Shown piece after piece: positions 33,537 to 41,285 of a DNA stretch of 64,000 nt. The notes under the pieces were generated by a model that worked only from the letters and a program-made list of their open reading frames with translations, had not been told where the DNA came from and searched no databases. The DNA comes from Ectothiorhodosinus mongolicus (GTDB taxonomy: Bacteria; Pseudomonadota; Gammaproteobacteria; Ectothiorhodospirales; Ectothiorhodospiraceae). A program made the position numbers and the translations under genes. Positions within the stretch are counted from its first letter, which is position 1; each line of letters starts with the position of its first letter. The stretch spans positions 1,729,312 to 1,793,311 of the forward strand of contig NZ_CP023018.1 of NCBI RefSeq assembly GCF_022406875.1, given 5' to 3'.

Positions 33537-34139
33537 CTAACTCCAGCTCACCGCAAACAAACAAGCCTCACCGCCGGCTGCGGCGCATTGCGACTCGATC
33601 ACACGCGTGCGGCGATGCACCAGCTGGCGGAATAGATGCTCAAACACCGCCGCATAATAATCACACACCGGATTATTGGCCCGCAGCAGACGACACAAAG
33701 GACTATTGTCGATGCGCAGCTGCAACCGTGGCGAGTACTCAACACTGAACTGACCGCTACCGGCAAATGTCCAGCTGTTGCGCCCAATGGCAGTCAGCAG
33801 GATGCGCGCGGCCAAAGGGGCCGGCAGGAGTTTGAGTAAGATCTGCACCGGGCGCGGAATACGATGCGCCAATAAATAATCCGCAGTCAGCCGCCCCGCC
33901 TCCAGCGACACTGTTTTGGCCGTTTCCTCATCGCAATGCTCACGCAGCGCTTGATGCAGCCGGCTCACGTCGTTCTCATCCACCATCTCGGTCGGCGGCT
34001 CTGTCAGATGATGCTGCAGCTCGGCTGCCGCAAAAACGGCTTGCTGTGTTTTCAGATCCACGCGATGCTCAAGAGCCTCGGCTACGCGGGTAATCGCATT
34101 GGGGCCAATACGCCCCGAGGAATCAATAGCTTGTGACAT
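33537..34139 (-). CDS. bchJ: Bacteriochlorophyll 4-vinyl reductase-like protein
   Basis: A 200-residue protein of the BchJ family with a C-terminal V4R (4-vinyl reductase-type) domain: NNPVCDYYAAVFEHLFRQLV and the cysteine-containing ESQCAAAGGEACLF are typical. It is the last gene of the leftward photosynthesis operon, starting 2 nt after puhE ends. BchJ affects the 8-vinyl reduction step or delivery of tetrapyrrole intermediates in bacteriochlorophyll synthesis; its exact role is debated. In Rhodobacter bchJ lies next to bchE and bchG, so this position is different. Confidence 0.9.
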   Translation of the reverse strand: MSQAIDSSGRIGPNAITRVAEALEHRVDLKTQQAVFAAAELQHHLTEPPTEMVDENDVSRLHQALREHCDEETAKTVSLEAGRLTADYLLAHRIPRPVQILLKLLPAPLAARILLTAIGRNSWTFAGSGQFSVEYSPRLQLRIDNSPLCRLLRANNPVCDYYAAVFEHLFRQLVHRRTRVIESQCAAAGGEACLFAVSWS

Positions 34140-34141
34140 GT

Positions 34142-35008
34142 TTAGGCAGGTCGGTTGGGAAGGGGGTGAGGACCCGGTGCTTGGGTTTTGTCCGGATCAT
34201 TAGCAGCTTGATAGCGCGGATAAATGGGCACGAATTCAGCATCTTCCGGAATACGCGAGCGTAGCGCCCAATTCCACAGTGCTTGAGAGGGCAGGGGTAG
34301 CACCAAAAACCAGTGCTCAAGAATCGCCAGCAACATCAGCATCGCCAAAAACGTCATCCCCGCGGTGTGCTGTAGGCTGGCGCCACTGGCCAGCGCCGAC
34401 TGAACCAACAACACCGCCACCGCCATAGCCAAGGTCACTGAGACGGGGAAGAACACATTCATCGGCCGCTTACGAAAATAACTCTCTAGATAGCGTAAAT
34501 GGTCCGGCAGCCATTCCTCATTGAGGTTGCGCACGCCAAAAAACACATTCAGTTTGGTACTGGTGCGCATCACCCAGAGAATTAAGAAGGTATAAAGGCC
34601 CACCAGATTGCTCCCGCCCCAAGTGATCCCCAATATTGCCAAGAAAAATCCCAGCAGCAGCAGTTCATGATAGGAGATCGCCTGCACCGCATACCAAAAC
34701 CGGGGCCAACCCTTGGCGCCCTCAGGACAGCGATCGCGACGGCTCCCGGTGAGAAAGCCCATGAGAAAGCTCATCTCCACCCAACCCCATAAGACAATGG
34801 CGCTGGTGAAGGCGATGTAGATGGCCAATAAGGACGGATCATGGGCGGTGACTGCCAGCGCATAAAGCGCCACAGCCCCTAGGATCGTGGCCCCCCACAT
34901 GCTCCAGCGGTAGGTGCGGCGCGGCAAACCGTCTAAGTAAATAATCGCCCCGGTGCTAAACCACCAGAGGAAAACCACATAGAGAATGGGTAGCGCGTAC
35001 TGGATCAC
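34142..35008 (-). CDS. puhE: Photosynthetic complex assembly protein PuhE
   Basis: A 288-residue integral membrane protein with about seven transmembrane segments, matching the PuhE (putative photosynthetic complex assembly protein 2) family; FFGVRNLNEEWLPDHLRYLESYFRKR is its conserved stretch. It supports assembly of the reaction centre and light-harvesting complex. It overlaps puhC by 4 nt at its start and bchJ follows at once. In many purple bacteria acsF and another gene lie between puhC and puhE; here they do not. Confidence 0.92.
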   Translation of the reverse strand: MIQYALPILYVVFLWWFSTGAIIYLDGLPRRTYRWSMWGATILGAVALYALAVTAHDPSLLAIYIAFTSAIVLWGWVEMSFLMGFLTGSRRDRCPEGAKGWPRFWYAVQAISYHELLLLGFFLAILGITWGGSNLVGLYTFLILWVMRTSTKLNVFFGVRNLNEEWLPDHLRYLESYFRKRPMNVFFPVSVTLAMAVAVLLVQSALASGASLQHTAGMTFLAMLMLLAILEHWFLVLPLPSQALWNWALRSRIPEDAEFVPIYPRYQAANDPDKTQAPGPHPLPNRPA

Positions 35009-35517
35009 TGGGGGGCATACGCTGCATCAAAAAGTCGCGCAAAAGCCGCCGCATTGCTCGAGCCAAACGCATTAAGCTCGTAGCGCAATCCCGTTTGCGG
35101 ATCCTCCAATGACAGACTTTGATCCGACCAGCGAGTCAGCAGAAACGGCGCCTGAGGATCAATATCTCGATTGCGTCTGTCCAAAGCCATAATGCGCAGC
35201 ACGGTCAGCATAAAACCTTCCCCACCCGCTTCAATCATCCGCAGGGTACGACCCTCATCGGCATCCACAATCGCCGTGCGCCCACCCAAGTGCGCCTCAG
35301 TGCGCAGCGATAATTGCTGTACCTGCGTGCGGTTCTCATGATCCAAAGGCACGGGTGAGGGGGCGGGGCGGGTAGCCTGTTGCACTGGCGTTGTGGGGGT
35401 GGACACGGCATTGGTCGATAGATAAAAGATGCCGACTAAGGCCAGCAGCACCAAGGCGCCAACGCCCGGAAACAGCCAGCGGCGATAGGGGTGTTCAGCT
35501 TCCTTGGATTCAGCCAT
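35005..35517 (-). CDS. puhC: Photosynthetic complex assembly protein PuhC
   Basis: The ATG at 35517 gives 170 residues. There is a single N-terminal transmembrane helix (WLFPGVGALVLLALVGIFYL, about residues 14-33) and a periplasmic domain, the layout of PuhC. The segment EGFMLTVLRIMALDRRNR is typical. PuhC is needed for full amounts of the reaction-centre/LH1 complex. It lies 16 nt behind puhB and overlaps puhE with an ATGA junction. Confidence 0.9.
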   Translation of the reverse strand: MAESKEAEHPYRRWLFPGVGALVLLALVGIFYLSTNAVSTPTTPVQQATRPAPSPVPLDHENRTQVQQLSLRTEAHLGGRTAIVDADEGRTLRMIEAGGEGFMLTVLRIMALDRRNRDIDPQAPFLLTRWSDQSLSLEDPQTGLRYELNAFGSSNAAAFARLFDAAYAPQ

Positions 35518-39455: not shown

Positions 39456-39459
39456 GCGC

Positions 39460-40722
39460 TTATACCTTAAGTTTTTGTCGGCGCAGCAGTGGCCGAGCAA
39501 AAAGTTCCGCCAAATCAGCGGCCTGGTCATAGCCTTGTATGGGGCTAAATACCAGCTCAATGGACCATTTGGTGGTAATGCCCTCAGCCTCCAGGGGATT
39601 GGCCTGACCCAATCCACAGACCACCACATCCGGCTTCGCGGCGCGGCAGCGATCGAGCTGCTTGTCCACATCTTGACCTTCGCTGAGCTGCACATCCTCT
39701 GGTAACCAGGCCAGCTCGTGCTCTAGGTGGCCCTTGTGCAAATACGGCGTACCGATCTCGAGCAATTCCATACCCACCTCGCGGTGTAAGAATCGCGCCA
39801 GGGGGATTTCCAGTTGCGAATCCGGGAACATGAATAAGCGCTTGCCGGTGAGCTGTGGGATATAGGTCTCCAGGCTTTTCTTGGCGCGAGCGATCCCTGG
39901 CTGGGTGACTTCATCAAAGCGGGCCTCATCCACGTCGAAGGCCGTTGCTGCGGCTTTGAGCCAGCCCGTTGTGCCCTCGACCCCTAGCGGGAAGGGCGCC
40001 GACAGGTATTTCGCGCCGCGTTTTTCTAGAGCGCGCGCGGTTTCACCCAAAAATGGTTGGGCCAGCAAGAACACGGTGTTTTCGCCGACGCTAGGCAGTG
40101 TATCCGAACGACGCGACGGCAGATAATCGACCTGCTCAATGCCCATGGCTTTGAACAAGCGTGTGAACTGGTCCTCGACGATATCGGCCAAGGTGCCGAC
40201 CACCAACAGTTGCTGGTTAGAGCCGGCCGGACGGGTCTCCAGTTCGGGCACCAAGGCTGACAAACAGCTGTCCTCGCCTTGGGTGAAGGTGGTCTCAATG
40301 CCGCTGCCGGTGTAATTCAGAATCCGTACGCCTGGGGAGTAATGTTGCGACAGGCGCTCAGCCGCTCGACTCAAATCCAGCTTAATGACTTCTGAGGGGC
40401 AAGAGCCCACCAAGAACAGCATGCGTATGTCGGGACGCCGCTCTAGCAGACGCCCCACGACACGATCTAGCTCCTCATTGGCATCCGCCATGCCTGCCAG
40501 GTCGCGTTCTTCGATAATCGCCGTGCCAAAGCGCGGCTCAGCGAAAATCATCACGCCGGCGGCCGATTGCATCAGGTGCGCGCAGGTACGCGAGCCAATG
40601 ATCAAAAAGAAAGCATCTTGGATCTTGCGGTGCAGCCAGATAATGCCGGTCAGCCCGCAAAACACCGAGTGCTGGCCGCGTTCGCGAATAATCGGAATGC
40701 GGCGTTCGAGATCGGCGCTCAT
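39460..40722 (-). CDS. bchN: Light-independent protochlorophyllide reductase, subunit N
   Basis: A 420-residue BchN with the three cysteines that hold the NB cluster: C22 (SVFCGLTG), C47 (SRTCAHL) and C108 (VGSCPSEV). It reduces the D ring of protochlorophyllide in the dark, with BchB and BchL. It overlaps bchF by an ATGA junction and is followed by bchB after 4 nt, so all three are co-translated. Neither sequence nor length is unusual. Confidence 0.97.
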
Positions 40723-41285
40723 GTCCGCGTCTCCGAACCGGTACTCGCGCTGGTTCCCATGGGTGGATTCTCGGCTGATGCTGAGGTGGCTGCCTGAGCT
40801 TTCGCAGCCGCCTCACCCAGCCTTGCAGCGCGTAGCTTAAGAATAAACTGTGCGGCGTTGATGACGTAAATCGCATAAGCCACCAAGGCCAGATACATTT
40901 GCTGCTCGACGGTCAAAAACGCCACGAACAGCGAAGCCATATAAATCGTGTGCAAGGCGATCACCGCCATGCTGACCACGTCCTCCCAGAAGAACTGTTT
41001 GGCGAACAGATAATGACCAAAGACGACTTTTTCCCAGATCGCACCGGTGACCATGATGGTGTACAAAATCAATGTCTTAAGCACGATCGAGGCATGCGCC
41101 CAGAACAAACCCTCACCAGTCTGCAAATAGCGCACTACCAGCCAGGTGCTGATGATGAACACCAAAAATTGGGTGGGCGCGAGAATGCCCTGCACCAAAG
41201 TCCAGTGTGTTTCATCGCGTCGTTTGCGCTGTTCTGGGGTATACAGCGGGGGTGGCGCCTTGCGGCCGCTGCCGGCAGAGGGCAT
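40719..41285 (-). CDS. bchF: 2-vinyl bacteriochlorophyllide hydratase
   Basis: A 188-residue membrane-associated enzyme of the BchF family, with [20 protein letters not shown] and [18 protein letters not shown] as conserved stretches and about four transmembrane helices. It hydrates the 3-vinyl group of chlorophyllide on the way to bacteriochlorophyll a. It is the first gene of the long leftward operon bchF-N-B-M-puhA-B-C-E-bchJ. The C-terminal 30 residues are a low-complexity tail. Confidence 0.95.

Follow-up and report, generated by a model that had tools for sequence, protein, structure and literature searches.

What became of bchH, bchL and lhaA, three genes missing from the operon of bacteriochlorophyll and puh genes of the purple sulfur bacterium Ectothiorhodosinus mongolicus, and what now occupies the place of lhaA? 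We addressed this question in a window of 64,000 nucleotides (nt) (the whole stretch analysed; contig NZ_CP023018.1, positions 1,729,312 to 1,793,311; G+C 0.559) from a genome that is one contig of 1,995,095 bases. On the reverse strand at window positions 33537-41285 lie bchF-N-B-M-puhA-B-C-E-bchJ, nine open reading frames (ORFs) that each fit their own NCBIfam model. With the genome's own copies as queries, tblastn finds no bchH, bchL or PUCC gene (the family of lhaA) in the window, in agreement with a first-pass annotation, which had reported bchH, bchL and lhaA as absent from the operon. That annotation further proposed that all three had been lost or relocated. We find that the two fates fall on different genes: bchH and bchL were relocated, not lost, and lhaA was lost. 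On the sequence evidence, we read the locus as an Ectothiorhodospira-type cluster in which lhaA was in addition deleted in place, a 62-nt intragenic promoter of puhA was kept in what is now the spacer between bchM and puhA, and PucC, the one PUCC-family protein left, works for both antennas. We put the probability of this reading at roughly 60%.

Searching the rest of the genome for the missing genes, as had been suggested, recovers bchH at contig 1867862-1871029, ~97 kb from the operon, and bchL at 1613969-1614757, ~148 kb from it on the opposite side, and no lhaA. In all ten genomes of the genus (that of the window and nine others), bchB leads directly to bchM. In the same ten, bchL stands after the same zinc-ribbon gene and before pucC and antenna alpha and beta genes, heading a bchL-pucC-antenna locus in the window genome, and bchH adjoins sppA. 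Nine of the ten also have lysA near bchH and sppA in the stretch compared; in the window genome lysA is 5.5 kb away and sppA is inverted. Because the new neighbours are common to all ten genomes, the moves of bchH and bchL predate the genus. This displacement is already known, bchH and bchL having been described as lying outside bchFNBHLM, elsewhere in the genome, in Ectothiorhodospira (PMC8877833). It is ancestral to the group and, by the annotation's own criterion, not a rearrangement.

To see how unusual the order is, we compared 80 named loci, the best among the matches listed, with genes recognised by tblastn with the window proteins. Among these, bchH comes next after bchB in 72 of 77 assessable loci (three of the 80 are too short) and all five exceptions are Ectothiorhodospira, so the gene order in the window is not due to chance. 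A PUCC gene follows bchM in 56 of 61 assessable loci among the matches listed (63 show bchM, two of them too short); those without it are two E. mobilis records, an Oxalobacteraceae metagenome-assembled genome (MAG), Hyphomonadaceae UKL13-1 and an Aquidulcibacter MAG. Thiorhodospira sibirica, of the same family, has the full order bchFNBHLM-lhaA-puhABCE, and a Chromatiaceae plasmid has the full standard order as well. Two features of the Ectothiorhodospira-type cluster, bchB without a following bchH or bchL and the separate genomic places of bchH and bchL, are found here, the first in all nine same-genus relatives too. The arrangement bchG-ppsR-ppaA-bchF is not: the bchF-bchG gap is 161 nt in the window (41286-41446) versus ~2.8 kb in relatives, and PpsR has no match in the window genome at E<=0.001. 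This agrees with the published account, in which ppsR and ppaA lie between bchF and bchG in relatives and are absent in Ectothiorhodosinus mongolicus (PMC8877833). In a concatenated tree (a quick search, with long branches), the photosynthesis proteins of the genus group with Rubrivivax and a Steroidobacteraceae MAG, and those of Thiorhodospira with a Chromatiaceae plasmid; this may be a hint that the photosynthesis cluster has been exchanged.

The case of lhaA is different. The gene lies between bchM and puhA in four of the ten genomes (G002-G005) and is absent from six: that of the window, the E. mobilis pair (G001, G008), G006, G007 and G009. Its absence is a genuine loss and, as the annotation supposed, a real change, later than the moves of bchH and bchL. 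Each lhaA-less relative has a single PUCC gene, apart from G007, where bchL-pucC appears at both contig ends, giving two copies. In G007 (L179 and L044), bchH and puhE are also each broken into two frames; these features are probably sequencing and assembly errors. In-place deletion is shown by a scar in G006 and G009, where lhaA is matched, at exactly the same distance from puhA, by the sequence 173-48 (or 133-48, 155-48) nt ahead of puhA, about the final 145 nt of the gene having been kept. The scar scores 72-102, versus a maximum of 34 in single-base shuffles (reached by 0 of 500). The G007 spacer is nearly identical to those of G006 and G009, as judged by eye and unscored. For the other lhaA-less genomes we infer the same kind of deletion.

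What survives in 10 of 10 genomes is a bipartite element, made up of the FNR-like dyad TGATCCAGRTCA and, at a distance of 47 nt, TGTCTGGCA. It lies inside lhaA in the four genomes that have the gene, with TGATCCAGGTCAT 838-839 nt before puhA, and in the bchM-puhA spacer of the others, 333-354 nt before puhA in the lhaA-less relatives and 116 nt before it in the window. In the window, the dyad of box 1 is TGATCCAGGTCA at 37115-37104, which shares the bchM stop codon TGA, and TGTCTGGCA of box 2 lies at 37068-37060. Across six pairs from four lineages, 14-16 of 18 positions are identical in box 1 and 11-14 of 15 in box 2, as compared with 6-11 of the 29 nt between them; 0 of 100 shuffles did as well as the best ungapped 62-mer in any of the three spacer-to-spacer comparisons. 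The strict dyad TGATN4ATCA is found in the spacer of 5/5 lhaA-less relatives and in 0/4 lhaA-bearing genomes; the 537,893 bases scanned contain 16 copies of it, five of them in this spacer. G+C at third codon positions is 0.45-0.50 for the element inside lhaA versus 0.74-0.76 for the whole gene. With CATTAT in box 2 as the -10 hexamer, the dyad centre would lie near -61, the class I geometry of CRP/FNR promoters, and an extended -10-like TGGCA-N2-AT is at a distance that fits this geometry. By eye, TGGCA was also weighed as a sigma-54 site, an idea given up because the -12 GC is missing. As for possible regulators, the window genome has five PF13545 (Crp family) matches, two of which carry the FNR-type CxxCxxxxxC and a central Cys. 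A looser pattern, applied with no shuffle control, also places FNR-like dyads ahead of antenna genes in nine of the ten genomes, the exception being G002.

Several observations weigh against this reading. The window itself has the dyad with one mismatch, as do the four lhaA-bearing genomes (TGATCCAGGTCA in all five), and its spacer shows no lhaA scar beyond box 1, the box-1 match being reached by 3-10 of 500 shuffles. G008 and G001 have weak lhaA traces (scores 34-38, reached by 0-2 of 500 shuffles), and this match moves to box 1 once the 45 nt before puhA are left out. The box limits were picked by eye from the alignment before measurement, which makes the identities post hoc. Within lhaA, box 1 encodes LIQV, a common PUCC motif, and another PUCC gene (L198) shares the same 7/8 dyad bases, so the place of box 1 in lhaA could be incidental. 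As to overlapping constraint, the synonymous sites of the element are unremarkable among the four lhaA-bearing genomes (29 of 459 test windows are as low), and the longest unchanged run in lhaA, of a length reached by 270 of 5000 shuffles, is not at the element; its third-position G+C alone stands out. A sigma-70 scan of the spacer gave no promoter-like site. Finally, the trees, all quick searches with Shimodaira-Hasegawa-like approximate likelihood ratio test (SH-aLRT) support only, disagree on the window species: in a concatenated tree of nine photosynthesis proteins it groups with the other lhaA-less genomes (98), giving one loss, whereas in PUCC trees it falls outside the other nine (96 and 94), giving at least two.

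We propose the following course of events. bchH and bchL moved before the genus arose, while bchFNB-M-(lhaA)-puhABCE-bchJ stayed, and lhaA was later lost in some lineages, by deletion in place in G006 and G009 and probably in the others. The element may be an intragenic promoter of puhABCE-bchJ, at which an FNR protein bound ~61 nt upstream of the start site, in class I geometry, would activate these genes under anoxia. Selection would then have kept the puhA promoter while the coding part of lhaA went. That the promoter inside lhaA outlived its gene, that its dyad turned perfect in some lineages once the coding constraint was gone, and that, LhaA and Bch2 being absent, one PucC handles the assembly of both kinds of antenna is, taken together, a proposition to which we would give even odds. 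The retained bipartite element, with its predicted promoter role, is what is new here. In the open-licence literature (listings and text passages), we found no statement of lhaA loss in Ectothiorhodospira or of a promoter for puhA within lhaA. In R. capsulatus, lhaA reportedly contains a promoter. If the element is a promoter, this would suggest why lhaA and puhA usually stay together, one gene carrying its neighbour's control site.

It is also possible that the two boxes are a decaying, functionless remnant of lhaA. The boxes are indeed derived from lhaA coding sequence, and the protein motif encoded by box 1 is one common in PUCC proteins. Yet three diverged lhaA-less lineages have kept the boxes and the distance between them, although the bases in between are no more alike than background, and a dyad as rare as the perfect TGATN4ATCA recurs in all five lhaA-less relatives. 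We regard simple decay as unlikely, though it deserves to be kept in mind.

Another view, which the first-pass annotation took, is that the nine genes form one transcript, here from a bchF promoter and with a spacer of no role. The junctions are indeed as tight as it held, seven of the eight being overlaps or gaps of at most 16 nt: bchF/bchN, puhA/puhB and puhC/puhE overlap by 4 nt each, and the gaps are 4 nt at bchN-bchB, 9 nt at bchB-bchM, 2 nt at puhE-bchJ and 16 nt at puhB-puhC when the likelier internal ATG of puhC is used (the listed puhC ORF would overlap by 185). The eighth, from bchM to the conserved puhA ATG (36999), measures 113 nt. The negative promoter scan also fits an inert spacer. 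However, the claim is made doubtful by a conserved, regulatory-looking element between bchM and puhA, present in the spacer or in lhaA in 10 of 10 genomes, so that the gap is in fact occupied. An internal promoter could coexist with readthrough, and a single transcript tells part of the story at most. As a full account, we find it rather improbable.

Alternatively, lhaA might never have been present in the lhaA-less lineages and might have been gained by the G002-G005 group, whose LhaA branch is long and, in the unconstrained tree, lies apart from Thiorhodospira. We consider this very improbable. It is disfavoured by the 3′ remains of lhaA, which lie where they would be expected in G006 and G009 (in G007 as judged by eye); a constraint joining the group's LhaA with that of Thiorhodospira in a 49-row PUCC tree is not rejected (approximately unbiased test, p-AU 0.697); and a PUCC gene is at the usual position in most of the assessable loci listed above.

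A still less probable idea is that lhaA travelled with bchL, in which case the PUCC gene next to bchL would be the missing one. The two are adjacent, in the same order as in bchL-M-lhaA, and this gene (1614968-1616182, directly after bchL) is the sole PUCC match of the window genome. In a 57-row PUCC tree, however, the bchL-linked copies form one clade (99) and bch2 another (99), both apart from lhaA as defined by synteny, so the bchL-linked protein does not group with LhaA. Moreover, G002-G005 hold both lhaA and the bchL-linked gene, and the latter is followed by antenna alpha and beta genes, as pucC would be; in the window genome the two antenna peptides match PF00556, and both genes were found by tblastn in 10 of 10 genomes. 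On the tree and the co-occurrence we reject the move: the bchL-linked PUCC protein is a separate paralogue. Its clade also stands apart from six further PUCC copies, presumed PucC because they fall under neither lhaA nor bch2 (a set without Chromatiaceae PucC), and the tree does not resolve its tie to a seventh, that of Thiorhodospira. No antenna genes were seen beside this Thiorhodospira copy, the only one of the set whose antenna neighbours were checked. As for a small peptide left from LhaA, it is scarcely credible: a GTG-started frame in G009 reads KLIQ...CLAL in the lhaA frame, but visual inspection shows a TAA in frame between the two boxes of the window, which argues against such a remnant, and in G006 no start before KLIQ and an ATG after it.

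How, then, would antennas be assembled? The window genome has one PUCC match, versus two or three in every one of the 12 further phototrophs searched, which were taken from the 80 named loci. It retains a second antenna beta, of the WRPWG type, beside genes read by eye as reaction-centre L, M and cytochrome, and with these retained the species is expected to make light-harvesting complex 1 (LH1) without LhaA. Under the reading that we favour, PucC would serve the assembly of both LH1 and LH2, and LhaA would be dispensable for that reason. A further PUCC paralogue, bch2, often found between bchG and bchP, is missing at window 42329-42468. The usual order of antenna genes is beta-alpha; those beside pucC (L037 10490-10843) are ordered alpha-beta, and G002-G005 have an extra beta-alpha pair in front.

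Table 1. Coordinates, in the window, of the operon genes, the spacer and the element
Feature	Position	Strand	Remarks
bchF	40719..41285	-	TIGR02020, PF07284
bchN	39460..40722	-	TIGR01279
bchB	37845..39455	-	TIGR01278 match begins at residue 81, the conserved start; relatives align from residue 81; listed ORF starts 39695
bchM	37113..37835	-	TIGR02021
62-nt bipartite element	37056..37117	-	FNR-like dyad and TGTCTGGCA; predicted class-I-type promoter for puhA
bchM-puhA spacer	37000..37112	-	Site occupied by lhaA in 4/10 genus genomes
puhA	36178..36999	-	TIGR01150; start is the conserved MPTGAITEY, common to relatives
puhB	35534..36181	-	NF040894
puhC (likely start)	35005..35517	-	TIGR03054 covers residues 80-230 of the long ORF; listed ORF starts 35718
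puhE	34142..35008	-	TIGR03055
bchJ	33537..34139	-	TIGR02019
bchG	41447..42328	+	TIGR01476; divergent from bchF

Three observations concern the surroundings. malQ (window 32072-33484) comes after bchJ in relatives also (L041, L044, L080-L083, L138), and the junction with the glycogen genes is therefore old. Known RNA families have no match in window 33400-43700, up to E 0.5. BchH is the single PF02514 match of the window genome, with no CobN-like second match, and both are present in 8 of 10 relatives searched; the missing CobN-like protein may reflect loss of aerobic-type cobalamin synthesis.

Set beside the standard bchFNBHLM-lhaA-puhABC subcluster (PMC3176799), the window has bchFNB, bchM and puhABC ordered and oriented alike, and differs in lacking bchH, bchL and lhaA. 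Like the Ectothiorhodospira photosynthesis cluster (PMC8877833), it excludes bchH and bchL; the main text of that paper mentions lhaA, puhA and pucC zero times, and its Figure 3 covers the bchB region and may draw the lhaA difference. Thiorhodospira departs from the Ectothiorhodospira type in keeping the full order, which narrows the scope of the published gene-order trait. For the Rhodobacter superoperon, the text of PMC4263372 lists a separate PrrA peak for RSP_0290-1; puhA has its own regulation there, as is predicted here, but here the carrier gene is gone, the element remains, and the element is FNR-like rather than of the PrrA kind. LhaA and PucC of R. sphaeroides, as described in PMC4949548, are PUCC-family antenna assembly factors, of the same family as the window genome's protein. 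According to that text, LhaA is important but not essential for LH1, deletion of lhaA left reaction-centre H (RC-H) in place, and cross-talk between LhaA and PucC was considered. By comparison, the window genome has a single PUCC protein, in a clade apart from LhaA, and lacks Bch2 too. The lhaA-less species thus offer examples from nature of purple bacteria that should assemble LH1 with no LhaA, the protein usually regarded as the LH1 assembly factor, and the division of labour between LhaA and PucC becomes testable in organisms that have settled the matter by evolution.

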